A DNA stretch of 64,000 bases from a marine gamma proteobacterium HTCC2148 (GTDB taxonomy: Bacteria; Pseudomonadota; Gammaproteobacteria; Pseudomonadales; Halieaceae). The stretch covers positions 95,556 to 159,555 of the forward strand of contig DS999231.1 of the NCBI GenBank assembly GCA_000156295.1, read 5' to 3'. Positions within the stretch are counted from its first letter, which is position 1; every line of letters starts with the position of its first letter. The position numbers and the translations under genes are program-made. Below the pieces are notes generated by a model. It searched no databases and had not been told where the DNA came from. It saw nothing but the letters and a program-made list of their open reading frames with translations. This document shows, one piece after another, positions 32,027 through 58,403 of this stretch.

Positions 32027-32257
32027 GTGGACATCAGCAACGATATCATCGAAATTATCAAAACCATCCGCAAGCATCAGGGCTTTCGCGAGGACGCATT
32101 TGACCTCAACGCTGCGCTCTACGATGACGGGCTGGGCCTGGATTCACTGTGTGTAGCAGAACTGTCTGCAGTACTAGAGAAAAAGTACGGCAAGGATCCC
32201 TACACCAGTGGCATACTGCCCCAGACCGTGCGGGATATCGTCGACTTTTACAGCTGA
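32027..32257 (+). CDS. Acyl carrier protein (island ACP 1)
   Basis: 76 residues from GTG at 32027; the frame is open further upstream but that part is not ACP-like. The carrier signature DDGLGLDSLCVAELSAVLEKKYG gives phosphopantetheine attachment Ser40. The ANL ligase starts 6 bases after its stop, so ligase and carrier are a coupled pair as DltA/DltC are. The LGLDSL form and short length fit a dedicated secondary-metabolism or Dlt-type carrier rather than the fatty-acid AcpP. Confidence 0.88.
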   Translation: MDISNDIIEIIKTIRKHQGFREDAFDLNAALYDDGLGLDSLCVAELSAVLEKKYGKDPYTSGILPQTVRDIVDFYS

Positions 32258-32263
32258 CCTCAA

Positions 32264-33649
32264 ATGATCGCCTCCAGGCTCAATGCTGCGCTCCAAAAAA
32301 ACGCTCAGCGACCCTTCCTGATAACTAGCAAGATCCAATGGAATTACGCCCAAGCACACCAAGCTACTGGGCAACTGGTACTCACTCTGCGCGAGTCTGG
32401 TGCACGGCGACTCGCCTGCTACCTTCCTGACTCCCCGGAACTGGTATTGCTGGTTGTCGCTGCTGCGTCAGCCGGTCTCCCACTGGCTATTATGAATCGC
32501 GATTACAATCACGAACAGGTCTCGGCACTAACCGCCGAACTCGATATAGACCTGCTTTTCACTGACACTCCGTTGCCCGCTTCTCTATCCTGCCGGCAAC
32601 TCGCAATGCCAGCGGCAGACTCATATGTAACGACCCAAGATGCTGCGCTTGTGGAATTACCTGAACTCGATGCCGAGTTACTGATTTTCACGTCGGGCAC
32701 CACCGGGCAACCTCGCTGTGTGCGTTATCAATGGTCTGACCTGTTAGCGCAGGTCAGTGAGCGCCCCAGCCAGGATGACGAACGCTGGCTGCTCGCTTAT
32801 AAGCTTAATCATTTTGCGGGCATCCAGATGCTGGCGCATATCCTGTCCAGCCAGGGTTGTCTGGTGCTCGCGGACTCGACTCGGGTAGCTGATGCAGTCA
32901 CCGCGATGATCTCCCGCAACGTCAGCCATGTCAGCTCGACGCCCACGTTCTGGCGCTTTGCCCTGGCGCTGATGGCCCGCGAAAAAGATCTGCCGCTCCT
33001 ACGGCACATTACCCTGGGCAGCGAGCCGGTGTCCGAACACCTACTGGGGCAGCTGGCGGCACTGTTCCCATTAGCGCGCATCGTGCATATTTACGCCCTC
33101 ACGGAAGCCGGTTCGTGTATTTCAGTCAGTGACGGCAAAGCCGGGCTGCCCGCATCTATACTCCAGCGCCCGGACAACGCAGCAGTGCAGTTTCGCATCG
33201 TCGATGACAAACTCCAGGTTAAGACCCATCACGGCATGCTCGGCTACCGTAACGCGCCCGATTCACAACCCAGGGGCAAAGACGGCTGGCTCGCCACGGG
33301 CGACCTGGTGAAGATTGAGCAGGACCGCATTGTATTTATGGGGCGAGAGTCAGAGGTCATCAATGTTGGCGGCGTCAAAGTCCACCCTTTGGAGGTCGAA
33401 AATATCGTCTCCGCTTTGCCTGGAGTAAAGCTGACGCGAGTTTTCGGCCAGGACAACCCTATTATGGGTCAGATAGTGGCTGTGGATCTGGTGCTTGACG
33501 AGGGGTTCGACGCTGAAGCGGTCGAAGAGGCAGTGCGAGCGGCCTGCCGCAGCCTGCCCAGACATAGCATGCCGCGCAATGTGACGATTGTTGATAGTAT
33601 CGATACCAATAATTTTAAGTTGACCAGGCGAGGAAGCGAGACAGCATGA
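32264..33649 (+). CDS. ANL-superfamily adenylating enzyme (acyl/aminoacyl-ACP ligase)
   Basis: 461 residues, short for the family. P-loop FTSGTTGQPR (142-151), A5-type YALTEAG, A7 LATGDLV, A8 GRESEVINVGGVKVHPLEVE and a final catalytic Lys in NNFKLTRRG are all present. It activates a carboxylic acid as AMP ester and loads it onto a thiol, most likely ACP 1, whose gene lies 6 bases before. The substrate pocket cannot be read by eye. Overlap with the next SDR is ATGA, 4 bases. Confidence 0.88.
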   Translation: MIASRLNAALQKNAQRPFLITSKIQWNYAQAHQATGQLVLTLRESGARRLACYLPDSPELVLLVVAAASAGLPLAIMNRDYNHEQVSALTAELDIDLLFTDTPLPASLSCRQLAMPAADSYVTTQDAALVELPELDAELLIFTSGTTGQPRCVRYQWSDLLAQVSERPSQDDERWLLAYKLNHFAGIQMLAHILSSQGCLVLADSTRVADAVTAMISRNVSHVSSTPTFWRFALALMAREKDLPLLRHITLGSEPVSEHLLGQLAALFPLARIVHIYALTEAGSCISVSDGKAGLPASILQRPDNAAVQFRIVDDKLQVKTHHGMLGYRNAPDSQPRGKDGWLATGDLVKIEQDRIVFMGRESEVINVGGVKVHPLEVENIVSALPGVKLTRVFGQDNPIMGQIVAVDLVLDEGFDAEAVEEAVRAACRSLPRHSMPRNVTIVDSIDTNNFKLTRRGSETA

Positions 33650-34368
33650 AAGTCGTGGCAGTAAGTGGCGGTAGTAAGGGTCTGGGGGCTGCCATAGTGC
33701 AGTCCTTCCTCGACAGTGGCTACTGCGTTGCCAGCTTCAGCCGCCGGGGCACATCGAAAACGGAGGAATGGCAGCAGCAGTTCCCGGATAGATTCCTGTT
33801 CGTAGAAATGGATCTGACGGACAGTGCTGCCTGCAAGGCCTTCGTCAGTCAGGTAGAAGATACGCTGGGGCCCATCGAGGTTTTGGTCAATAACGCAGGC
33901 ATGGCTCATACCAGCCTGCTACCGTTAATCGATGATGACGCTATCGATAATCTGGTCGATCTCAACCTCAAAGGCACCTTCAGACTCACCCGGCAGGTGT
34001 CGCGCAGTATGCTATCCCTAAAGCGCGGCCGAATCATTAATATATCTTCCATTATCGGCTTATCCGGTTACCGAGGTCTCTCAGTTTACGGAGCGACTAA
34101 AGCAGGCTTAGACGGCTTTACTCGAGCGCTGGCGCGAGAATTGGGTGCGCGCAACATCACAGTCAACTCGGTAGCACCGGGTTACCTGACCACGGAAATG
34201 ACCGAGGAGCTGAACACTGCCCAGAGCCAGCAAATAGTCAAGCGCACACCGCTGGGTCGGCTAGGCGATCCGGCAGACATCACTGGCCTGATTCTTTTCC
34301 TCTGCAGCGATCAAGCTAACTTCATTACTGGGCAGGTGCTGGTAGTGGATGGCGGCATTACCTGCTGA
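33646..34368 (+). CDS. SDR, 3-oxoacyl-ACP reductase-like (FabG family)
   Basis: 240 residues, FabG length. Cofactor loop SGGSKGLGAAI, NNAGMAH, Ser134/135 in INISSIIGLSG, Tyr148-x3-Lys152 in YGATKAG, and a C-terminus typical of FabG (ITGQVLVVDGGITC). It probably reduces a beta-keto group on a carrier-bound acyl chain, given the ACP-ligase operon. FabG-like SDRs are also sugar-modifying enzymes, so the role is inferred. Confidence 0.85.
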   Translation: MKVVAVSGGSKGLGAAIVQSFLDSGYCVASFSRRGTSKTEEWQQQFPDRFLFVEMDLTDSAACKAFVSQVEDTLGPIEVLVNNAGMAHTSLLPLIDDDAIDNLVDLNLKGTFRLTRQVSRSMLSLKRGRIINISSIIGLSGYRGLSVYGATKAGLDGFTRALARELGARNITVNSVAPGYLTTEMTEELNTAQSQQIVKRTPLGRLGDPADITGLILFLCSDQANFITGQVLVVDGGITC

Positions 34369-34391
34369 CCAGATCGGGACACAAACTGAAA

Positions 34392-35243
34392 ATGGCAAAC
34401 GTAACCCCCAGCATTAGCAGCGGTGACCCCACCGAGCACTACGATACTGTAGTGGAGGCTTGGGATCACTTACTCGGCGAAGACCTGCACTATGGTTATT
34501 TTCGCGTGGGTGATGAATCGCTAACTCATGCTACTGACGCACTGACCAATGAAATGTTATCCCTGGCACAATTGGATGCCGGGCTAGAAGTCCTGGATAT
34601 TGGCTGCGGTACGGGCAAAGCCGGCTGTCGTATCGCCAGTGAGCACCTGTGCCAGGTCATGGGCGTATCGCCCAGCAGCGCCTGTATAGGCCGCGCATCT
34701 GCTCTTTCTGAATCACTCGGCTTGTCTACCACTGCACAATTCCAGCACGGCGATGGCACGCAGTTGCAATTTGATGATCACAGCTTTGATCGGGTTTGGG
34801 TGATGGAGTCCTCCCACTTAATGGATGACAAACTGGCGCTGCTGAGCGAGTGCTCCCGAGTGTTAAAACCCGGCGGTCGCATGGTGTTATGCGATGTCAT
34901 GCTGCGAGCCAAACTAAGCCTGCCGCAAGTTATCTCGCGCCGGGACGAATTTCTTATTCTCAAAGATGCTTTCGGGCGCGCCAAAATGGAAACCCTGTCG
35001 TTCTACCAGGATCAGTTGGAAGGCCATCAACTACACGTGGAGCACGCCAGGGACATCTCACGGGAAACTCTGGCCACTTTTGGCCACTGGCGGACAAACG
35101 CCCAGAATAATCGTGTTCGGGTAGAGCAACATATAGGAAAAGCCGCCTCTCGCCGGTTTCTTGCCTCCTGCGATGTACTAGAAAGCCTCTGGCTAGAAGG
35201 CATCATGGGCTATGGGATTGTCGCCGCATATAAAGCTGCCTAA
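34392..35243 (+). CDS. Class I SAM-dependent methyltransferase
   Basis: 283 residues. Motif I VLDIGCGTGKAGCRIA, acidic motif II region, FDRVWVMESSHLMDD and post-motif LKPGGRMVLCDVML are typical of Methyltransf_11/25 (UbiE- and tocopherol methyltransferase-like) enzymes. The N-terminal YDTVVEAWDHLLGEDLHYGYF resembles small-molecule C- or O-methyltransferases. It is the last gene of the ACP-ANL-SDR operon, 23 bases on, so it may methylate the acyl group or its precursor. Its stop overlaps the stop of the convergent MBOAT gene by 4 bases. Confidence 0.85.
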   Translation: MANVTPSISSGDPTEHYDTVVEAWDHLLGEDLHYGYFRVGDESLTHATDALTNEMLSLAQLDAGLEVLDIGCGTGKAGCRIASEHLCQVMGVSPSSACIGRASALSESLGLSTTAQFQHGDGTQLQFDDHSFDRVWVMESSHLMDDKLALLSECSRVLKPGGRMVLCDVMLRAKLSLPQVISRRDEFLILKDAFGRAKMETLSFYQDQLEGHQLHVEHARDISRETLATFGHWRTNAQNNRVRVEQHIGKAASRRFLASCDVLESLWLEGIMGYGIVAAYKAA

Positions 35244-36718
35244 AACTGAAAGTAGAGAAATTCGCTCGCTTTCGAAATCATCATCACAGAAATTACGAAA
35301 ATAACCACCTGTAGCAACAATACCGACTTACCTGGTTTGAACCGGTCTTTCAGATCCATGCTATTGGGAGCCAGGGCGACAATGCCGATGAAAAACAGGA
35401 CCGCTAACGTCAACACCCAAGTCGCCCATTGATCCCTCTGCACGGGGCTAGATGCCAGATTGAAATACCAGGGTGCATCCGACCCCATAAGCTTAACCGC
35501 GGCTACACTAAATGTGTTTTCCGTGAAGCCCAGCATACCCTTGTAGATTTTAAACACATCTGACCAATCCGTGGCTCTGAAAATCACCAGTGTGAAACTG
35601 AAAAAATGGAAAGTGATCAACCAGCCAAGCCAGTTGGACATCTTGATACCTGTCTTGCGCCACAGGTGGTTGACCACAATAGCAGCGCCATTAAGCATTC
35701 CAAAAACCACAAAAGTCCATGCGGAACCATGCCAGATACCGCTGACTATCATGGCAAGAAAACTCGCTGCCATGCCGGCTTTGAAGTTGAGCTCTGGAAA
35801 AAAACGCAGGATCGTCTTGTAAATATAAGTGTTGATAAAACGCGTAAGCGTAATGTGCCAGCGCTGCCATAGATTGATGATGCTAGTCCCCTTGTAGGGG
35901 CTGCGAAAGTTAACAGGCAATTCAATATTGAACATCAAGCCCAGGCCTATCGCCATATCAGAGTAGGCAGAAAAATCAAAATAGAGCTGAAATGTGTAGC
36001 TGTATTGGACCAGCCAGGCCTCAAGTAAATTGAGCGTCTCGGCAGCATCAAAGCCATGATTGACAAGGATTTCAAACGAATCGGCAATGACCACCTTCTT
36101 GAACAGGCCCACGCTGAACACAAAAGTACCGAGGATAAAATTGCGAGTATGAAAGCGTCGATTATCTGTGGCACGGAACTGGGGCATCATTTCCCGATGG
36201 TGAACGATCGGGCCAGCGATCAGCTGCGGAAAGAATGATACAAACAATGCATAGTCGACCGGGTCCCGCTCCCTTAGACCCGTCCGATAACAGTCCACAA
36301 TAAAGGCGATCTGCTGCAAGGTAAAAAAGCTGATGCCCAACGGCAGCGCCAGTCTCAGATAATCCAACTCAACGCCGGGAAGAAGATTCACGTTGAAGAT
36401 AAAGAAATCCATGTACTTGTAATACGCCAACAACGCTACATTGAGGCAAACGCCGAGAATCATCAGTCGTTTCTTGGGCGGGATAATCTCTCTCGAGCGG
36501 CCGTAAGACTGGATTTTTCCTGCTATCGTGTAATTCACTACGATAGAGCCCAGTAACAAAGGCAAATAGATTGGGTTCCACCAGCCGTAGAACAGCCAAG
36601 ACCCGCCTAGCAAAAACAACTTCCCGGCTCGCGAATAATCAAGGTGATTGAGCGCGTAATAGCCCAGCAATACCAGCGGCAGAAAGGCAAAAATAAAAAT
36701 GTAGGAATTAAAAAGCAT
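35240..36718 (-). CDS. MBOAT acyltransferase 1 (AlgI/DltB-like)
   Basis: 492 residues, polytopic inner-membrane protein. It begins MLFNSYIFIFAFLPLVLLGYY and ends FLYFQF like the other two MBOATs here. Signatures are FFPQLIAGPIVHH, YFDFSAYSDMAIGLGLMFN, QRWHITLTRF (His288) and the catalytic GIWHGSAWTF (His330). Members move acyl groups from a cytosolic donor through the membrane to a periplasmic partner. The usual RDYLYxPLGG after RWH is replaced by NTYIYKTILRF, suggesting a divergent donor or partner site. It is divergent from its presumed SGNH partner at 36953. Confidence 0.92.
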   Translation of the reverse strand: MLFNSYIFIFAFLPLVLLGYYALNHLDYSRAGKLFLLGGSWLFYGWWNPIYLPLLLGSIVVNYTIAGKIQSYGRSREIIPPKKRLMILGVCLNVALLAYYKYMDFFIFNVNLLPGVELDYLRLALPLGISFFTLQQIAFIVDCYRTGLRERDPVDYALFVSFFPQLIAGPIVHHREMMPQFRATDNRRFHTRNFILGTFVFSVGLFKKVVIADSFEILVNHGFDAAETLNLLEAWLVQYSYTFQLYFDFSAYSDMAIGLGLMFNIELPVNFRSPYKGTSIINLWQRWHITLTRFINTYIYKTILRFFPELNFKAGMAASFLAMIVSGIWHGSAWTFVVFGMLNGAAIVVNHLWRKTGIKMSNWLGWLITFHFFSFTLVIFRATDWSDVFKIYKGMLGFTENTFSVAAVKLMGSDAPWYFNLASSPVQRDQWATWVLTLAVLFFIGIVALAPNSMDLKDRFKPGKSVLLLQVVIFVISVMMISKASEFLYFQF

Positions 36719-36952
36719 TCAATTGTCACTTCGGGGCGCTAGTGTGGCGTGAGGCGCTCCATTCATAGGAATGGATCTGGCAAACCAGCATTTCCACACA
36801 ATGCTTTTCTGATTATGTCGGCGAGTATAATCTTCCGCGCGGCTTGTGACCATCATTGGCCGCTTGTAACTGGAGTCGTCGATTATATAAAGATGTGACA
36901 ATTACTGTATACTGCCTAGCGTGACTTTTGCGTAACTCATACTCTGCCGGCA

Positions 36953-38221
36953 ATGCAATCAAAAACCTATCTAACACTGTTTTTGGCTATGGCCCTAACT
37001 GGCTTTAGCTGCGTTGCAGTAGTCAACTACGTTGTCGACCCCTACCGTTTTTTTAACTCAACCGACCGCCCGGGGATCAACGAGTATCGGCAGAAATTCT
37101 TTTATGGCCAGCATGTTTCCAAGCCTTATGCTCTGAGAGAGCTTGCACCTGAAGCAGTGATTCTAGGCGTCTCCCGCGCTGGGTCATCCATGGCCACGGA
37201 TCACCCCGGCTGGAACGGCGCCCCCGTTTATAACTATTCAATAGCCGGCAGTACTGCCTACTTGATCTGGAGAAACTATCAACACGCGAAAGCCAGCGGG
37301 GAGCTCAAGCAAGCGCTGCTGATGCTGGATTTTTATATGTTCAATATACATAGGGAGCAGCGTCCCACGGCCGGCGTTATACCTACTTACGAGGAACGCC
37401 TCGCCGTTACTCCGGAATTCAAAAAGAATAGTGGCTACCCTGTTCGACTCTTTAAGGACACGCTGACATCCTTGATTTCGTTCGAGATGCTGCATGAGAG
37501 TTGGAACACAGTCCTGGCGCAGTCCCGTATTGCCCGTAAAGAGATACCCAAGTCAACTCTGACTCCCACCGGATTCTGGATTACTGATCCAAAACCCAAG
37601 GCGCCTCAGCGTGCAGCCTTCCGGCAGATCGAGCAGCAATATATGACTTTTACCTGGTTCCCGCGCCCGGACCAAAAGTTCGCATTACATAGGGCTGACG
37701 AATCCTCTAACCTGGTTTATCTCCAAAGAATACTGGCCGACGCCTATAGTGAGGGTATCGAAATAAAACTTGGCTTCATGCCCTTTCATGCCAGATTGGC
37801 GGAATCCATGCGCGCGGTTGACCTGTGGGATGACTTTGAACAGTGGAAAAAAGAGGTTGTGCAATTAGTGGAGAAGGAAGCCGCAAAAGCCGGACAGTCG
37901 CCATTCCCGCTGTGGGACTTCAGTGGCTATAATTCAATTACCACCGAGCCAGTACCCGCAAAAAAAGACAAGACCAGCCGCATGCGCTGGCACCTGGACA
38001 CATCACACGTAAGCCGGGCTACAGGTGATTTGATTCAGACCGTTTTATTGGGTGTCGACGGTGAGCGCGTTCACGATTTTGGCCAGAAAGTAGATAGCCG
38101 TACTATCGATGCGCATTTAAAACGCTCGCGCATTGACCGAAAGCGCTATGCGAAATCGTTTCCAAAAGACCTGCAGGAGGTTCGAGAAAAAGCAGAAAAA
38201 ACGAGTGCCTGGCGTAAATAG
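36953..38221 (+). CDS. SGNH-like periplasmic partner of MBOAT 1
   Basis: 422 residues. One N-terminal membrane anchor (about 5-25) is followed by VVDPYRFF, then KPYALRELAPEAVILGVSRAGSS with candidate nucleophile Ser74, YNYSIAG, LMLDFYMF, and a C-terminal LDTSHVS giving the Asp349-x2-His352 pair. This is the SGNH order seen in AlgJ/AlgX- and DltD-like proteins that complete acyl transfer in the periplasm. The C-terminal tail is Lys/Arg rich. The 234-base gap to MBOAT 1 is AT-rich (36719-36952) and may hold divergent promoters. Confidence 0.8.
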   Translation: MQSKTYLTLFLAMALTGFSCVAVVNYVVDPYRFFNSTDRPGINEYRQKFFYGQHVSKPYALRELAPEAVILGVSRAGSSMATDHPGWNGAPVYNYSIAGSTAYLIWRNYQHAKASGELKQALLMLDFYMFNIHREQRPTAGVIPTYEERLAVTPEFKKNSGYPVRLFKDTLTSLISFEMLHESWNTVLAQSRIARKEIPKSTLTPTGFWITDPKPKAPQRAAFRQIEQQYMTFTWFPRPDQKFALHRADESSNLVYLQRILADAYSEGIEIKLGFMPFHARLAESMRAVDLWDDFEQWKKEVVQLVEKEAAKAGQSPFPLWDFSGYNSITTEPVPAKKDKTSRMRWHLDTSHVSRATGDLIQTVLLGVDGERVHDFGQKVDSRTIDAHLKRSRIDRKRYAKSFPKDLQEVREKAEKTSAWRK

Positions 38222-38245
38222 CCGATTATTCTGAGGCCGAGACGT

Positions 38246-38506
38246 TTACCAGTCACCAAACTCTTCCAGCACCCGTTTCGCCTTGGCGTAAAAAAGATTG
38301 ATGGTATTTGCTTCGTCGATGTCGAACTCTCCGAGGTCGATATCCAGAGACTTTTCAACTTCCAGTACCAGACTGATGCCAGCCAGTGAATCGAGGCCAT
38401 AATCACCTAGGTCCTCGTCGTCACTAATTACCACGTCTTCTGTCTTTTTCAGCACCTTTTTGATGCCAACTTTCACAGCTTCCCGGAATTCATCCAGTGT
38501 GAACAT
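38246..38506 (-). CDS. Acyl carrier protein (island ACP 2)
   Basis: 86 residues. The carrier signature GDYGLDSLAGISLVLEVEKSLDIDL places the phosphopantetheine Ser at 40. It is acidic, with helix 1 TLDEFREAVKVGIKKVL. It lies 30 bases downstream of the KASIII gene, so KASIII and ACP 2 are one transcription unit and probable partners. It differs strongly from ACP 1, so the two are not a recent duplication. Confidence 0.9.
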   Translation of the reverse strand: MFTLDEFREAVKVGIKKVLKKTEDVVISDDEDLGDYGLDSLAGISLVLEVEKSLDIDLGEFDIDEANTINLFYAKAKRVLEEFGDW

Positions 38507-38536
38507 AAAACCCCTCGCTTTTGCACTTGTTAAACA

Positions 38537-39466
38537 TCATAAACGCTCAAGTATCGATGTGGCCCATGACAGCCCTACACCAAACCCCGAAATAAGAATC
38601 GTTTTCTCCCCTGTTTCCATATACTGCTCTAACATTAATGGAATCGAGGATGATACGGTATTGCCTATTTCCGCAGCCAGGAATGGAGCCTTATCGGCTT
38701 CCACACCCAGTGCAGTAATTAAGTTATCCACGATGTATTTACTGCCCTGATGCAGGAGGTAAAGGTCGACCTCACTCTTCTCCAGTCCATTCTGCTCTAG
38801 ACACTGTTCGATCTGCGCGGGCACTTTAGTGACCGCAAACTTGAACACATTGTTTCCCAACATTGAGAGTACCCGAGTATCCTCGTTGACTTTGATCGAA
38901 TGCGACAATCTGGCATTGGTAGAAAATGTGGACTTGCGAGAAATGAATATCGGTTGAGCCGCAATATAAGTCACTGCGGCAGCATCTCCAAACAATAGTT
39001 CAGTATTGTAGTCCAGCGGGTCAATTACCTTCGAATAAGGATCAGCGGTAAACAAAAGGCCATGTTGCAGGCCCTGGGCATTCATAAAGGCCTGAATAAC
39101 ATCCAGCCCATAAACAAAGCCGGAGCAACCCAATGAAACATCAAAAGCCGCGACATTCTCTGATAACCCTAGCTTATGCTGCACAATTGCGGAGGTGTGT
39201 GGTAAGCCAAAGCCATCAGGGTTCTGCGTGACAACAATCAGACAATCGATGTCCTCCCGCTTGATATCTGGCTGCTTTTTGAACAAAGCGTCGAAAGCCC
39301 CAACACAGAGGTCTGAAGTTTCCTCGCCATCACTTTTTCGCTGCAAAGAGGTAAAACCAACTTTGCCGGTGATGAAATCAACCTCCTTTCCCACCTCTTC
39401 CGCGCGATCAACGTTACTGACTCGTCGCTCAGGAATATAACTAGCAATCGCTTTTATACCAACCAT
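38537..39466 (-). CDS. Beta-ketoacyl-ACP synthase III (FabH-like)
   Basis: 309 residues of thiolase fold. The triad is intact: Cys114 in DVSLGCSGFVYGL, His239 in LLHQGSKYI, and Asn269 in EIGNTVSSSIPL. The C-terminus GFGVGLSWATSIL is typical. Unlike housekeeping fabH it is not next to plsX/fabD; it sits with ACP 2 between two MBOAT modules. It may start or condense a short acyl chain, or transfer an acyl group as KASIII-like acyltransferases do. Confidence 0.92.
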   Translation of the reverse strand: MVGIKAIASYIPERRVSNVDRAEEVGKEVDFITGKVGFTSLQRKSDGEETSDLCVGAFDALFKKQPDIKREDIDCLIVVTQNPDGFGLPHTSAIVQHKLGLSENVAAFDVSLGCSGFVYGLDVIQAFMNAQGLQHGLLFTADPYSKVIDPLDYNTELLFGDAAAVTYIAAQPIFISRKSTFSTNARLSHSIKVNEDTRVLSMLGNNVFKFAVTKVPAQIEQCLEQNGLEKSEVDLYLLHQGSKYIVDNLITALGVEADKAPFLAAEIGNTVSSSIPLMLEQYMETGEKTILISGFGVGLSWATSILERL

Positions 39467-39880
39467 TAAAACCCCAGACTTTTTAACGAGAAGAAAAACA
39501 GATAGCTCCCAGAGGGCGGGAGAAATCTTACCTCGAGCACCTTCCCATGTGTTGCGTAATACATTCTACCATTTGTTGATTTAGCGCGCCCCTGACACCA
39601 AGTTCATTCAAAGCGCGCCATCGGTCTGGACAAACCCCTGTAAGCACCGCTTGAACACCGAGCACGCGAGAGCTATGTCTCGCGAGACGCTAACGAGTTT
39701 TTAGCAACGACGCGAAGGCGCTATGAAGAATTGCACCGAAATAAAACCGCACATTGATTAGCAAACCGGGAGGCTATGCTGACGTCGTGTGAGGTGCGGA
39801 AATTTTTGGTCCGGCGGTCTGTTCTAGACGCCCGGATCATTCAGGTCACCAAGCCCAACTTACGCCAGAATACAGCCCTT
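39467..39880. other. Intergenic gap with extended -10 and stem-loop
   Basis: No coding frame is evident in 414 bases. On the minus strand TGGTAGAAT (39563-39571) is an extended -10 about 100 bases before the KASIII start, without a clear -35. CGCGAGA (39665-39671) and TCTCGCG (39678-39684) form a perfect 7-bp stem with a 6-base loop. A small RNA is possible but unsupported. Confidence 0.4.
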
Positions 39881-41419
39881 TTAAAACTGAAAGTATAAGA
39901 ATTCACTGACCTGAGTCAGGTTTAGACAACTGGCGATAAAAAGCAGGGCAATAAATAACGCCCATACCTTCCCCGGTTGCCAGCTGAAAGAAAGTACCGC
40001 CGCTCGCCCGATGGGCGGTTTATCCAAGGCTATATCGATGGGTTGAAAAAGCTGCCAGGTGCTTGGCAGGAACCAGCATCCCATGATGGCTAACACCAGA
40101 CTGCCAAACACCAATGTAACCGCCTGACCAGCCAAGCCCACCATATCCGCAATGGCAAAAAAATTAGTGGCCTGCAGCACCTGCAAATAATGAGGGGAAA
40201 AGCCCCAATAATCGGCATTCATCAAGCCTTGATAAACATCTGCAGCTGCAGTCACCGTCTCCGCTCGAAACAAGACAAGGGTGAATACAACCACCAGAAA
40301 GGTGAACAACTGAGCCAGAGCCTTGTACCAGCCCTTGCCCACCAGGCCCAGAGGGCCAGACACTCTGATACGCCAGATTTGATGCAGTACCACATAAATG
40401 CCATGAAAGACGCCATACAAAAAGAAAGTCCAGCCGGCACCGTGCCATACACCACCGGCGAACATGGTCATAAACAGATTGAACCGCTGTCGACGAGGAC
40501 TGCATAAAAAGCCGCCCAAGGGAGCGTAAACGTAATCTCGAAGAAAGCGCGACAGGGTTGCGTGCCACATACGCCAGAAGTCACTGATATTTTGCGCCCG
40601 GTAGGGGGAATAAAAATTCACCGGCAGCTTCAGGCCAAACAGGCAGGCCAGACCGATAGCCATATCACTGTAACCGGAAAAGTCGAAGTACAGCTGCATA
40701 GCATAGCTGAATGTGCCCGCAAGAGATTCAAGCGTATAAAGCGCCACACCACTGTCCGCCATGGTGAAAATCGGTGTCGCAAACAAACCAAAGCTGTCAG
40801 CGATAACCACTTTCTTGAACAGGCCTATCACCAGAATAGACAGGCCGATACTAAGATTGCGCGACGTCTCTTGCGGCGTTCCCAATTGCTTAAACTGCCC
40901 CAACATCTCCTGATGATGAACAATAGGTCCGGCGATCAGCTGTGGGAAAAAACTGACGAAAAGACAATATTCCAAAAAGCCGTGTGAATCAGTCAAACCT
41001 TTACTCGTGTCAACCAGGTAAGTGATTTGCTGAAAGGTATAAAATGATATTGCCAGCGGTAAGACAATATGACTGAAATTAAAACTAACGTCGTTTAGCA
41101 CAGCAATACTTTCGACGAAAAAATTGCCGTATTTGAAATAGGCCAGCAGGCCGATGTTAAAAGCTATGCCACAGATCAGAAGGGCTTTCTTAACCAATCC
41201 CTGCCAACGTTGCAGAGCACCGCCCAAACCGTAGTTGACACCGATTGACAGAGCCAATAGCCATAAGTAGATCGGGTTCCACCAGCCGTAAAATAAAAAT
41301 GACGCAAGTATCAGCCAAGCCATAATCAGACGTGGCCGGCCCAGGCGCTGCAGCAGCCAGAAGCCGAACCACACGGCAGGCAGAAAAATGAAGAGAAATT
41401 CTATGGAGTTGAACAGCAT
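39881..41419 (-). CDS. MBOAT acyltransferase 2 (AlgI-like)
   Basis: 512 residues, about 11 membrane helices. MLFNSIEFLFIFLP start, FFPQLIAGPIVHH, YFDFSGYSDMAIGLACLFG, MWHATLSRFLRDYVYAPLGG (His286), GVWHGAGWTF (catalytic His326) and final FLYFQF. This one keeps the canonical RDYxYxPLGG loop of O-acetyltransferases such as AlgI. It lies opposite its partner SGNH gene at 41577 across 157 bases. The donor is probably acetyl or a carrier-bound acyl group; the acceptor is unknown. Confidence 0.93.
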   Translation of the reverse strand: MLFNSIEFLFIFLPAVWFGFWLLQRLGRPRLIMAWLILASFLFYGWWNPIYLWLLALSIGVNYGLGGALQRWQGLVKKALLICGIAFNIGLLAYFKYGNFFVESIAVLNDVSFNFSHIVLPLAISFYTFQQITYLVDTSKGLTDSHGFLEYCLFVSFFPQLIAGPIVHHQEMLGQFKQLGTPQETSRNLSIGLSILVIGLFKKVVIADSFGLFATPIFTMADSGVALYTLESLAGTFSYAMQLYFDFSGYSDMAIGLACLFGLKLPVNFYSPYRAQNISDFWRMWHATLSRFLRDYVYAPLGGFLCSPRRQRFNLFMTMFAGGVWHGAGWTFFLYGVFHGIYVVLHQIWRIRVSGPLGLVGKGWYKALAQLFTFLVVVFTLVLFRAETVTAAADVYQGLMNADYWGFSPHYLQVLQATNFFAIADMVGLAGQAVTLVFGSLVLAIMGCWFLPSTWQLFQPIDIALDKPPIGRAAVLSFSWQPGKVWALFIALLFIASCLNLTQVSEFLYFQF

Positions 41420-41576
41420 TAAGTTCGACGAATGCCCGCAGCCTATTTAGTCCGTATACCTGAATCGATACAGGCAGTTTTCCCGCATTAGACACTATAC
41501 GCGCTGTATCTGTCACCCTGTGCTAACATCCAATGCGTAATATCAATGTCTACCCGGCGCAACTGGCAAACACCTT

Positions 41577-42740
41577 ATGTACCGCACCTACCTTTTGATG
41601 AGCACCGTTTTCGCTACGCTGCTCGCCCTTATGGTCGTTGTGTTCTGCTTTTTTGTAGATCCCTACAATTTATATCCATCCCTTAATTTTTATGAGAATG
41701 AGCAAGAAGCGGACCTGTTCTATCATCTGCGGCTGCACAAGCCTTACGCTATGGAAGCTCTGAAGCCAGATCACCTGATTGTAGGCAGCTCGCGCTCTGC
41801 TCGACTGCCGCCAGACTCTCTTGCAGCAAACGATGAGCAATCCTATAACGCAGCTTTGCCAGGCGTGACCCTCCGTGAAATTCGATTACTAGTCGAACAC
41901 GCGCAGGCCATTAAACCACTTACGTCAGTGCTCATCGGTATCGATTACTATATGTTTCGCCAGGGCTACTCATCTATTAGTGCGCACTTCGAAGCTGCGC
42001 GCCTGCGCAAGATTCAACCAACTATCAAACAAAACCTGGCTCATTACTTTCAGCGTTTTGAGGATAACTGGAAGAGCCTTTTATCAGTAGATGCTTTGAT
42101 TAATGCCTGGGAAACTCTGTACGTCAAAGTAGAAAGCCAACGAAACTATAAGTCCGATGGTACCTGGGAGGCTAATCTAGATGGGCCAAAACGCGGTACC
42201 TGGCTTTTCTCCATGCTGGTGAAGCAAAAATATCAGGACTTTACTCAAAAAACAGATCAACTCGATATGGCAGAGTTAAATGCCCTGCTGAAATTTTGCG
42301 ATGACCATGATATTCAGGCGTGGGTCCTGATATCACCCCTTCACGCCAGTGTCATGAATAGTGTGAATATGGCGGGACAGTGGCCGCAATATATTGATTG
42401 GCAACGACAGGTCATCCAAGTCAGCTCCACCTACTCTAACAGCGCCCGCGTCTTCGCTTTAGAAAACAGCCCAAACCTGGTGCTGGAAGCAATAGATCAG
42501 GACAGCCGCTTTTTTCTGGACGGTGTTCATTACACCAGCCAGGCCGGGCGGCAGATAATGACTTGTCTGGCTGGGAGCAACTGCGATTCGACAATCAACC
42601 TGGCCACCCTAAACAATACGAACAGCACGCCCTACTTAGACGCGGTCACGGGACTCATGGAAAATTATCGCCATAGTAATGCAAGGGATTTCGCTCGCGT
42701 ACAAAAGTGGCTGGACCTTTCTGCTCAGGCCGGGCGGTAG
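41577..42740 (+). CDS. SGNH-like periplasmic partner of MBOAT 2
   Basis: 387 residues, homologous to the genes at 36953 and 57237. N-terminal anchor (about 7-27), FFVDPYNLY, KPYAMEALKPDHLIVGSSRSARLP with candidate nucleophile Ser72, YNAALPGVTL, LIGIDYYMF, and C-terminal LDGVHYTSQAGRQIM with the Asp and His of an SGNH triad. It is placed in the periplasm by one helix. Role: accept or hand on the acyl group moved by MBOAT 2 onto the glycan (inference from AlgJ/DltD). Confidence 0.8.
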   Translation: MYRTYLLMSTVFATLLALMVVVFCFFVDPYNLYPSLNFYENEQEADLFYHLRLHKPYAMEALKPDHLIVGSSRSARLPPDSLAANDEQSYNAALPGVTLREIRLLVEHAQAIKPLTSVLIGIDYYMFRQGYSSISAHFEAARLRKIQPTIKQNLAHYFQRFEDNWKSLLSVDALINAWETLYVKVESQRNYKSDGTWEANLDGPKRGTWLFSMLVKQKYQDFTQKTDQLDMAELNALLKFCDDHDIQAWVLISPLHASVMNSVNMAGQWPQYIDWQRQVIQVSSTYSNSARVFALENSPNLVLEAIDQDSRFFLDGVHYTSQAGRQIMTCLAGSNCDSTINLATLNNTNSTPYLDAVTGLMENYRHSNARDFARVQKWLDLSAQAGR

Positions 42741-55690: not shown

Positions 55691-57232
55691 ATGCTGTTCA
55701 ACTCTGTCGAATATTTGTTCTTTTTCTTACCCATTACCGTACTTGTCTTCCTGATTTTAGCGCGTGCACCCAGCACTGAGCGACAAATCACCTGGCTGGT
55801 CCTTGCCTCGCTCTTTTTTTACGCCAGTTGGAAGCCGGAATATCTGCTACTTATCATCAGCTCGGTTGTCATTAATTTCTTGCTGGGGAAGCAACTGGCA
55901 AGACCCGGTTCTGGCAAAGCACTGCCCTGGCTAACGCTTGGTGTCTGTTTCAACCTGGGCTTACTTGGGTATTTTAAATATACCGGGTTTTTCCTGGACG
56001 GCCTGAACGCTATTGGCTTATGGCTCATACCGGTGCCAGAAATCACTCTGCCACTGGCAGTTTCATTTTTTACTTTTCAGCAGATAGCCTATCTCGTCGA
56101 TGTCTCGCGGCGTGACTGCGAAGAATACCAATTTCGTCACTACACATTATTTGTGCTTTTTTTCCCGCAGTTAATTGCCGGCCCCATCGTGCATCACAAG
56201 GAAATGATGCCGCAGTTCAGTACGATGCGGCCGCGCGCCAATATCCCCACGGACTTTGCAGTCGGCATCACGTTTATAGCTGCAGGACTGTTCAAAAAAG
56301 TGGTGATGGCGGACTCGCTCGCACAGATTGCCGACCCACTATTCAGTGCCGCCACTGCAAGCGACCAGCTAAACACCATAGACGCGCTATTGGCCGGTTT
56401 TGCATTCAGCTTTCAGGTTTACTTTGATTTTTCCGGCTATAGCGATATCGCTATCGGCAGTGCCCGCTTGTTTGGCATCAGGCTGCCTGAAAACTTCCGG
56501 TCGCCCTATAAGTCACGCAGCGTCATTGAGGTCTGGCAACGCTGGCATATGACCCTGTCGCGATTCCTCAGGGATTATCTATATTTTAGCCTGGGCGGAA
56601 ACCGTCTGGGCGCCTTCAAACGCTATCGCAACCTGGTGATCACCATGGTGCTGGGCGGCTTATGGCACGGCGCAGCATGGACCTTTGTGTTATGGGGTGC
56701 GTTACATGGACTATTTCTGTGCCTTAACCACACCTGGCGTGCATTTACCTACCGTGCTGGACTAGAAAAGCTTTGTCAGACAGCGTTGCTACAGCCGATG
56801 TTTGTATTGCTAACCTTCACTGCCTGGACTATCGCCGTGATCGTATTCAGGGCCGAAGATGTGCCCAGCAGCTGGATTATCATTCAATCCGCGTTCGTGG
56901 ATATTAACTTCAGCCAACCGTTGATACTGCAAGAAACATTCAACAACGGTCTGCTACAGCGACTACTGACATTTGTCGGAGTTCCAGTCGTCACTTACAG
57001 CGAGGTTTCTATCGTTATGCTGGCGGCGGCTCTCATCTGCTGGGCGCTGCCAAACACACAGGAACTTATGATCAAGTACGATCCCGTCATCATCGCAGAC
57101 AATGCTCCAATAAAACCTGCAGGCATGAGCTGGCAGCCAACCTTTTTCTACGCTGTGATCACTGCCCTACTGCTAGCCGCTTCACTGATGAGCATGTCTT
57201 CAATCACTCGATTCATTTACTTCCAGTTCTGA
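55691..57232 (+). CDS. MBOAT acyltransferase 3 (AlgI-like)
   Basis: 513 residues. MLFNSVEYLFFFLP start, FFPQLIAGPIVHH, YFDFSGYSDIAIGSARLFG, QRWHMTLSRFLRDYLYFSLGGNR (His286), GLWHGAAWTF (catalytic His326), and terminal FIYFQF. It has the canonical O-acetyltransferase loops. It is followed after 4 bases by its SGNH-like partner, the only collinear pair of the three, which supports pairing of the other two divergent sets. It is an inner-membrane protein moving an acyl group to the periplasm. Confidence 0.94.
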   Translation: MLFNSVEYLFFFLPITVLVFLILARAPSTERQITWLVLASLFFYASWKPEYLLLIISSVVINFLLGKQLARPGSGKALPWLTLGVCFNLGLLGYFKYTGFFLDGLNAIGLWLIPVPEITLPLAVSFFTFQQIAYLVDVSRRDCEEYQFRHYTLFVLFFPQLIAGPIVHHKEMMPQFSTMRPRANIPTDFAVGITFIAAGLFKKVVMADSLAQIADPLFSAATASDQLNTIDALLAGFAFSFQVYFDFSGYSDIAIGSARLFGIRLPENFRSPYKSRSVIEVWQRWHMTLSRFLRDYLYFSLGGNRLGAFKRYRNLVITMVLGGLWHGAAWTFVLWGALHGLFLCLNHTWRAFTYRAGLEKLCQTALLQPMFVLLTFTAWTIAVIVFRAEDVPSSWIIIQSAFVDINFSQPLILQETFNNGLLQRLLTFVGVPVVTYSEVSIVMLAAALICWALPNTQELMIKYDPVIIADNAPIKPAGMSWQPTFFYAVITALLLAASLMSMSSITRFIYFQF

Positions 57233-57236
57233 CGAC

Positions 57237-58403
57237 ATGACGAGATATCTGATTACTGTAGGCGTCATTTTACTGCTATTTATCGGCACTTTTGGGACGT
57301 TCAATTATTTTGTCGATCCACTGTTACTCTATCAGCAACAAGGTTCGAGTAATGCCACGCTGAATCGCATTGACCAGTTCGACAATATGCGTTTCTCCAA
57401 GCCATATCACGTGCTCGAACTTAAGCCGGATGCCATTATCATCGGCTCGTCCAGAAGTGGAACAATAATACCGAAACATGCGCAATGGCTTGGACTGAAA
57501 GGCTATAACTTCTCACTTCCTGGCATGACCCTGAACGAGATAAATCGCTCTGTCCGACACGCCCATGCCAATCATCGCCTGAACAAGCTGATGATCGGCA
57601 TAGATTATCAGGCTGTCGTTAGCCCCCTGCCAACTTCACGCTCCGGCTTTGAGCCGGATCGCTTGGTCTCATCAGCCACAGGCTTTCGCAGCGCCACTTA
57701 CTTAGGCCAGTACCTGACAGATCTCCAGGCCTCTTTACTTTCCCTGGATATCGCCAGCGAAAGCCTGGCAGCCCTGTCTCCTCCCGGCCCCAGAGTCAGA
57801 AAATATTTTTCCAACGGTATCTGGCGCTCAATCACCAATCAGTTGACGGGCCGCGGGGGTTATATTTTCTCTGCGAAAAACACTGCCAGAACACGTGAAG
57901 TTACTCCTTTTGAAGCTGACACTAATCTGGCGATTTACGAAGACCTGCTACGTTTTTGCTATAGCAACAATATTGATACTCGGCTTTTTCTTACCCCCAC
58001 GCATGTATTCGTTGTCGACCTCTGGTTTGGCCTGGCCTCGGAAGCGCTATGGCGTGACACACATCGCCGCCTGCTCGCTATCAACCAACAACTCGCCTCT
58101 GAATATAATAGAACGGCATTTATCATTCGTGGATTTGGCAATGAAGCACAGGTCACGGATGAACCCATATACCTGGCTCGACATATTGAGCGGGCATGGT
58201 TCGATGATGGGGTGCATTATCGGGCCAAGATGGCCAATGGCCTTATGAAAGGGGTGTGGGACACGCATTCGGATTTCGGGCAGAACCTGAGCAGCGATAA
58301 TATCGATCAATATCTGGATAGCATTGATGCGCTGCGAGTTAATTTTATGCGCGATAATCAGGAAGTGATCGCCCAGCTACAAGCTAAAATAGACGCTCAA
58401 TGA
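57237..58403 (+). CDS. SGNH-like periplasmic partner of MBOAT 3
   Basis: 388 residues. Membrane anchor (about 4-22), YFVDPLLLY, KPYHVLELKPDAIIIGSSRSG with candidate nucleophile Ser72, YNFSLPGMTLNEI, MIGIDYQAV, and C-terminal FDDGVHYRAKMANGLM with Asp and His. It has the same order of blocks as the proteins at 36953 and 41577. It starts 4 bases after MBOAT 3, so translation is coupled. It probably completes the acyl transfer on the outer face (by analogy with AlgJ/DltD). Confidence 0.82.
   Translation: MTRYLITVGVILLLFIGTFGTFNYFVDPLLLYQQQGSSNATLNRIDQFDNMRFSKPYHVLELKPDAIIIGSSRSGTIIPKHAQWLGLKGYNFSLPGMTLNEINRSVRHAHANHRLNKLMIGIDYQAVVSPLPTSRSGFEPDRLVSSATGFRSATYLGQYLTDLQASLLSLDIASESLAALSPPGPRVRKYFSNGIWRSITNQLTGRGGYIFSAKNTARTREVTPFEADTNLAIYEDLLRFCYSNNIDTRLFLTPTHVFVVDLWFGLASEALWRDTHRRLLAINQQLASEYNRTAFIIRGFGNEAQVTDEPIYLARHIERAWFDDGVHYRAKMANGLMKGVWDTHSDFGQNLSSDNIDQYLDSIDALRVNFMRDNQEVIAQLQAKIDAQ

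Follow-up and report, generated by a model that had tools for sequence, protein, structure and literature searches.

We find that a cassette of four genes in the marine gammaproteobacterium HTCC2148, encoding an acyl carrier protein (ACP1), an ANL-type acyl-AMP ligase (ANL), a FabG-like reductase (SDR) and an S-adenosylmethionine (SAM) methyltransferase (MT), recurs with one clade of MBOAT-family membrane acyltransferases, represented in the 64,000-nucleotide stretch of contig DS999231.1 analysed here (positions 95,556 to 159,555; hereafter the window) by MBOAT2 at 39881, beside which lies a gene for an SGNH-type protein (SGNH2). This association is best read as an acyl-ACP donor module that is portable and has been coupled to an export pair, and we put at about an even chance the proposal that the locus encodes a system in which carrier-bound acyl groups are moved across the membrane to acylate an envelope glycan. 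The layout of a carrier with a membrane export pair is best known from D-alanine transfer in Gram-positive walls, and an earlier note on this DNA had described the locus as a Dlt-like system rebuilt in a Gram-negative glycan island. All of the genes named there are present, of the kind and at the places given, as judged by open reading frames (ORFs) and family scans, including ACP1 with its Ser40 and the ligase 6 bases on (PF00550 and PF00501). The four cassette genes are on the plus strand, spaced 6, -4 and 23 bases apart; ACP1 scores 20.9 bits against a PF00550 cut-off of 20.8, and ANL carries LNHFAG in the A4 position and a lysine near its C-terminus (FKLTRR). Beyond the cassette, MBOAT1 and SGNH1 are divergent, ACP2 and KASIII follow on the minus strand, and MBOAT2 and SGNH2 are again divergent.

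ANL was used as the query (E ≤ 1e-60) in samples of 145 relatives, 390 genomes of the order and 369 genomes of the class, where the order is the grouping of the genome search with the source genome (G000) included, with scoring limited to the top 11, 4 and 4 candidates in each genome, respectively, so that some matches may have been missed. Matches occur in 6/145 relatives, the source genome included, in two genomes of the order sample (the source genome and G258) and in the source genome alone in the class sample. The order ACP1-ANL-SDR-MT is kept in the five other relatives (G026, G034, G081, G085 and G088) and in G258, which belongs to another family, for a total of seven genomes of one order with identities of 59-82% for ACP1, 43-67% for ANL, 60-85% for SDR and 48-67% for MT. 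Because this order repeats in six other genomes, the grouping is not due to chance.

The MBOAT that tracks the cassette is MBOAT2, not MBOAT1. A quick tree was built from 94 rows, comprising 93 of the 99 MBOAT places found in 51/145 relatives and that of G258; five of the 99 places, one 226-residue row and a 104-residue piece of the G258 protein were left out, and L019 was omitted as a second copy of G026. A private motif, WHATLxRFLRDYxYxPLGGFxCSPxRQ, is present in 9/94 rows, all from cassette genomes (two each from G000 and G085, one each from G026, G034, G081, G088 and G258), and these rows form one side of a branch with an SH-aLRT value of 100. A motif-bearing MBOAT lies within 5 kb of the cassette in 7/7 cassette genomes of the order, directly adjoining it in G026, G081, G085 and G088, separated from it by one SGNH gene in G034 and G258, and standing 4.6 kb away in the window, with MBOAT1, SGNH1, ACP2 and KASIII between. 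The arrangements vary, some convergent, others with SGNH then MBOAT downstream, and in G258 all genes run on one strand in the order MBOAT, SGNH, ACP1, ANL, SDR, MT; an SGNH gene adjoins the motif-bearing MBOAT in six of the seven. Across the 390 order genomes, MBOAT2 matches of at least 60% identity occur only in G000 and G258, the same two genomes that have ANL at E 1e-60, and the next best is at most 51%. MBOAT1 groups with a protein of G026 encoded on a contig other than that of its cassette (L107) and with one of G106 (L104), a genome not among the cassette genomes in the ANL search of the 145 relatives, and the other MBOAT clades of cassette genomes do not track the cassette in the tree. 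On clade and neighbourhood, MBOAT1/SGNH1 is rejected as the partner; the earlier claim of a joint carrier/ligase and MBOAT/SGNH system holds in that the cassette is tied to an MBOAT clade with SGNH, and fails in its choice of MBOAT1 (35240).

The predicted folds of this pair resemble those of DltB and DltD. A low-confidence model of MBOAT2 (mean pLDDT 63, four sequences) has DltB as its best PDB match (E 6e-11), with His326 aligned with DltB His336 and extra helices predicted after the DltB-like part, at the end of which stands FLYFQF. This fits the FXYXXF tail described as an acyl-Tyr shuttle and as acetylated in PatA (PMC12148441). Since 82/94 MBOAT rows have an FXYXXF-type end, which is not special to the motif clade, the tail supports the general mechanism and not the carrier claim. 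The MBOATs of the window end in FLYFQF or FIYFQF, and 7/9 motif-bearing rows end in FLYFQF, that of G034 running off its contig and that of G258 having its tail on a second ORF piece, where it reads FIYFQF; with the shuttle motif on its own tail, MBOAT2 seems not to need DltX. The four best PDB matches of the SGNH2 model, also of low confidence (mean pLDDT 61.7, five sequences), are DltD structures (best E 7.5e-4), and general SGNH hydrolases and PatB follow further down. The TM-scores to DltD chains are low, 0.25-0.36, and the likeness is therefore only a lead, one that is backed by the aligned catalytic residues, with Ser72, Asn91 and His318 in 14/14 rows of the SGNH alignment and Asp315 in 13/14. 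The PDB yielded no SGNH match when the family was searched by sequence profile, and neither SGNH1 nor SGNH2 has a Pfam or NCBIfam match at E 0.01; each has a single hydrophobic N-terminal stretch and the Gly-x-Ser, Asn and Asp-x-x-His common to its relatives. By alignment and low-confidence fold, the window thus holds the traits of an envelope MBOAT/SGNH pair, namely a catalytic His with FXYXXF and an anchored Ser/Asp/His SGNH protein.

The private motif aligns with DltB residues 288-319, the carrier-docking stretch included. Here most other MBOATs have GGN and then basic residues; in the motif-bearing proteins, GGF is followed by a residue that is mostly hydrophobic and then by Cys. Clade-specific change peaks at three places, residues 303-322 being one, and the idea that it is enriched at the docking stretch alone does not hold. 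Over the 94 MBOATs, carrier linkage is associated with loss of the canonical motif (20/26 vs 17/68, Fisher p 9e-6), in a test whose carrier profile was built partly from the same loci.

A number of observations weigh against a dedicated coupling of carrier and MBOAT. DltC is reported to contact DltB at Met302, Val305, Ile306, Met309, Lys312 and Arg317 (PMC11035591), and MBOAT2 keeps only the last of these six. Of the other five, Lys312 has been lost, Met302 and Met309 are replaced by other residues, and Val305 and Ile306 lie opposite a gap; the gaps make the alignment uncertain at the contact positions. With one in six contacts kept, the face of MBOAT2 appears re-cut at the carrier-docking place yet is no copy of the DltC site, and the carrier-docking surface anticipated in the earlier note is supported only weakly. 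The association of carrier linkage with motif loss is not significant on the tree (tree-based pairs, median p 0.25), and the seven genomes are not independent, since one clade is one origin. Adjacency is not specific either, as a canonical MBOAT lies 231 bases from ACP1 in G034 and MBOAT1 is nearer to the cassette than MBOAT2 in the window. G026 lacks an SGNH gene beside its MBOAT, the nearest being ~7 kb beyond ACP1, and in G258 the SGNH protein has Gly in place of Asp315 and the MBOAT is split into two adjoining ORFs (L024:9177-10714), a split that may reflect an error in sequencing or a genuine break. Two more genomes with close cassettes have no MBOAT neighbour: G828 (L022) carries all four genes, downstream of two KASIII genes, and its sole MBOAT is elsewhere and canonical, and G826 (L020), a Chromatiales metagenome-assembled genome in which no MBOAT was found, carries the ANL-SDR-MT part on a contig of only 3.7 kb, so that the surroundings are not visible. 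An Anaerolineae ACP-ANL-SDR set adjoins a hexapeptide-repeat protein, again in a genome in which no MBOAT was found. Among more distant ligase loci, a profile search finds an MBOAT in 0/11, including G161 of the same order. The check named in the earlier note, whether ACP and ligase genes occur without MBOATs in related genomes, gave a mixed result, with an MBOAT beside or near the close cassette in 7/9 genomes, none at that of the other two and none in the 11 distant loci.

Ligases of this distant kind (31-39% identity) turn up at E ≤ 1e-50 in 10 further genomes when 398 genomes of the phylum are sampled, and also on 10 replicons of Azospirillum, whose ligases match two thirds of the query at 38-40% identity; the 11 loci inspected represent nine of those genomes and two of those replicons. 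The full ACP-ANL-SDR set is present in five (L183 and L184 by annotation; L186, L190 and L191 by profile), and islands of the flagellin or pseudaminic-acid type surround four, as judged from annotation in two and by eye in the other two, the remaining loci being in other or unclear settings. Both Azospirillum records have the gene order pseI, a glycosyltransferase, a small protein, a hydrolase, ACP, ANL, SDR, KASIII and flagellin, with the small protein annotated as phosphopantetheine-binding in one; genes that by eye resemble pseudaminic-acid type pathways lie close to the set in G1021 and G161. From these varied settings, the donor module looks portable and its coupling to an MBOAT looks derived.

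The same islands suit a rival in which a cytoplasmic enzyme places the acyl group of the cassette on a nucleotide sugar or lipid-linked sugar, after the fashion of viosamine and pseudaminic-acid flagellin islands, and the MBOAT/SGNH pairs only share the island and use acetyl-CoA, which we consider possible but doubtful. Polar-flagellin islands of Aeromonas are described as having an ACP, a 3-oxoacyl-ACP reductase and an AMP-dependent synthetase (orf1-3; PMC7874193), and the viosamine island of Pseudomonas syringae (vioA, vioM, vioT, vioS, vioB, vioR, acp), which makes a 3-hydroxy-oxobutyl group, is reported to employ a KASIII, a reductase, an ACP and a methyltransferase (PMC3927599); the two close cassettes without an MBOAT neighbour and the largely changed DltC-contact positions also favour it. 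In the other direction, among 50 Pfam-scanned window proteins (some ORFs unscanned) there is no hexapeptide, GNAT or sugar-aminotransferase family, nor any N-acyltransferase or flagellin, and the cassette is tied to a single MBOAT clade; a shared island alone hardly explains this, given that the remaining MBOAT clades in the same genomes show no such tie.

LNHFAG is found at A4 in ANL of 7/7 cassette genomes, a position at which amino-acid activators carry an Asp motif. The 45 PDB matches of ANL at E 1e-10 include no DltA; most act on carboxylic acids as CoA or acyl-AMP ligases, and some are peptide-synthetase domains. ANL is predicted from its sequence to load ACP1 with a carboxylic acid other than an amino acid. 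It is very improbable that the locus is a genuine Dlt-type system with D-alanine or another amino acid as its cargo. Such a system would account for the modelled fold likeness to DltB and DltD, for the weak matches of ACP1 and ACP2 to DltC models and for TIGR01733 (amino-acid adenylation) being the third-best NCBIfam match of the ligase, at 110 bits against a cut-off of 317. However, MBOAT2 and MBOAT1 score 178.7 and 160.8 bits against the DltB model TIGR04091 (cut-off 375), and ACP1 and ACP2 score 17.5 and 28.4 bits against the DltC model (cut-off 68), far under these thresholds, with both being general carriers. To our knowledge, SDR, methyltransferase and KASIII have no part in D-alanylation. 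D-alanine as the substrate is rejected on the ligase motif and the model scores, and the locus is Dlt-like in outline but, by the tests made, not a Dlt member. Of the likeness to Dlt first proposed, the predicted folds of MBOAT2 and SGNH2 remain, whereas the phrase "Dlt rebuilt" is misleading given a LNHFAG ligase whose distant loci lie in flagellin or pseudaminic-type islands in 4/11 cases.

KASIII and ACP2 had likewise been counted as joined parts of the system. In none of the other six cassette genomes of the order do they adjoin the cassette, and relatives of KASIII at E 1e-40 are found in 2/145 genomes, the source genome and G090, such that a core role for the two is unsupported. The G090 protein is 48% identical to KASIII of the window and lies with a carrier (L170:8548-9701) in what is by eye a sugar biosynthesis-type locus. 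A nearby ORF in that locus resembles a sugar N-acyltransferase. It is improbable that two carrier-fed systems run in parallel, the ACP1 cassette with MBOAT2/SGNH2 and ACP2/KASIII with MBOAT1/SGNH1. Such an arrangement would fit the placement of ACP2/KASIII between SGNH1 and MBOAT2, the lack of the canonical GGNR motif in MBOAT1 and the presence in G106 of a carrier-like ORF (E 2.6e-6) that is 26 bases away from the relative of MBOAT1, but the MBOAT1 relative in G026 has no carrier match within 5 kb and no MBOAT was found in the genome of G090.

In the donor-module reading, ANL would activate a short non-amino-acid carboxylic acid and load it onto ACP1, where SDR and MT would modify it, giving a hydroxy- and/or methyl(oxy)-acyl group. 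MBOAT2 would then accept the acyl group from ACP1 at the cytoplasmic face and place it on the Tyr of its own C-terminal FLYFQF tail, from which the membrane-anchored, DltD-like SGNH2 would deliver it, in the periplasm, to a hydroxyl of a sugar; in the source genome, ACP2/KASIII may provide or lengthen the chain. What the sequences themselves show is the gene content, the repeated linkage, the specificity of clade and motif, the likeness of folds and the alignment of catalytic residues; we infer the ACP1-to-MBOAT2 transfer, the order of tailoring, the identity of the acyl group and the acceptor glycan. A 3-hydroxy or a methyl-branched or methoxy short group is suggested by SDR, MT and the parallel with the viosamine island.

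This scheme shares with Dlt a ligase that loads a carrier, an MBOAT that takes the acyl group and an SGNH protein that passes it on outside, with DltB and DltD as the best structural matches of the modelled MBOAT2 and SGNH2. It differs in a ligase without the amino-acid motif, in the extra SDR and methyltransferase, in a shuttle motif on the MBOAT tail and in mostly changed DltC-contact positions. With O-acetylation pairs of the PatA/PatB type, it shares an MBOAT with a C-terminal FXYXXF and a separate SGNH protein, but differs in that one MBOAT clade repeatedly occurs together with a dedicated carrier and a ligase; AlgI/AlgJ and WssH/WssI are further MBOAT/SGNH O-acetylation pairs. The dra locus of Bordetella pertussis has a Dlt-like gene make-up. 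It is reported as a Gram-negative surface D-alanine modification (PMC4448142) and, compared by description and not by sequence, differs in that it moves D-alanine. The flagellin islands of Aeromonas (a likeness from published description, not sequence) and Azospirillum have the same three enzyme kinds in a glycan island, and no MBOAT lies in either Azospirillum stretch; the window shares with flagellin, pseudaminic and viosamine modules the joint presence of ACP, ligase and 3-oxoacyl-ACP reductase. The viosamine island similarly gathers KASIII, reductase, carrier and methyltransferase around a glycan, but as described its acyl group goes onto a nucleotide sugar before transfer, and ANL ligase, MBOAT and SGNH are absent from its seven listed genes. 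In titles and abstract openings of open-licence literature, we recognised no ACP/MBOAT/SGNH system outside Dlt.

The locus therefore appears to be a new variant that combines a carrier-based donor with a tail-bearing MBOAT/SGNH exporter. Slightly short of even, in our estimate, is the chance that it stands for a class of Gram-negative MBOAT/SGNH systems in which a dedicated acyl-carrier donor replaces acyl-CoA: an acyl-ACP module akin to those of protein-glycan islands would make a custom acyl group, and an MBOAT subfamily whose cytoplasmic face is re-cut would carry it over the membrane by way of its own acyl-Tyr tail. If true, this breaks the rule that, among MBOAT/SGNH pathways, Dlt alone employs a carrier. 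An MBOAT clade that is linked to a carrier and has its own cytoplasmic-face motif offers a direct test of the choice between CoA and carrier donors, and it points to surface glycans bearing custom acyl groups instead of acetyl and to a modular natural route by which polysaccharides could be given chosen acyl groups.

Other ligase/MBOAT neighbourhoods were noted in these searches. G110 (L103) has a more distant one-strand operon, ACP-MT-SDR-ANL-MBOAT, whose ligase fell short of the E 1e-60 cut and which is followed by two proteins that are SGNH-like by eye and without match to the SGNH profile; this suggests, without proof, a second carrier/MBOAT coupling. In four loci of the same order (L102, L105, L109 and L115), a ligase of ~600 residues with a carrier-like C-terminal end by eye lies near an MBOAT of ~400 residues without the FXYXXF tail, which makes for a distinct layout closer to that of Dlt. 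Ligases also lie near ~400-residue MBOATs without the tail motif in L106, L110 and L111, with the L106 ligase having the exosortase-A-associated TIGR03098 as its best model, below its cut-off. In L108 (4852-8096), an MBOAT with GGF for GGNR is near a stand-alone carrier ORF.

Table 1. Features of the acylation locus and of the third MBOAT/SGNH pair, in window coordinates
Feature	Position	Strand	Basis
ACP1, dedicated acyl carrier, 76 aa, GTG start, Ser40 in DSL	32027..32257	+	PF00550
ANL acyl-AMP ligase	32264..33649	+	PF00501, E 3.9e-35
FabG-like SDR, predicted 3-oxoacyl-ACP reductase	33646..34368	+	NF009466, 235 bits, cut-off 222
SAM methyltransferase (MT), gene 4 of cassette	34392..35243	+	Pfam/NCBIfam scans
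MBOAT1, other clade, not cassette-specific, ends FLYFQF	35240..36718	-	PF03062, E 6.3e-26
SGNH1, partner of MBOAT1, one membrane anchor	36953..38221	+	residues aligned with relatives
ACP2, second carrier	38246..38506	-	Pfam/NCBIfam scans
KASIII, adjoining ACP2	38537..39466	-	GCSG, LLHQG and IGN stretches, which carry the catalytic residues
MBOAT2, clade tracks cassette	39881..41419	-	PF03062, E 1.6e-32
FLYFQF C-terminus of MBOAT2, fits FXYXXF acyl-shuttle motif	39884..39901	-	sequence
Private motif of cassette-linked MBOATs, MBOAT2 residues about 285-312	40484..40567	-	alignment with DltB 288-319
SGNH2, DltD-like partner of MBOAT2; Ser72, Asn91, Asp315, His318	41577..42740	+	alignment, predicted fold
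MBOAT3 and SGNH3, third pair, canonical GGNR motif (55691/57237)	55691..58403	+	scans, alignment

The third pair and a fourth MBOAT with SGNH just beyond the window edge had been overlooked in the earlier note; the four MBOATs found in the source genome (4.33 Mb, 31 contigs) are all on this contig. The stretch from 29507 to 63937 has the look of a large glycan-type island, with several family-2 glycosyltransferases, methyltransferases, a sulfotransferase and a sulfatase, and it also holds a fatty-acid desaturase and several 2OG/PhyH oxygenases.

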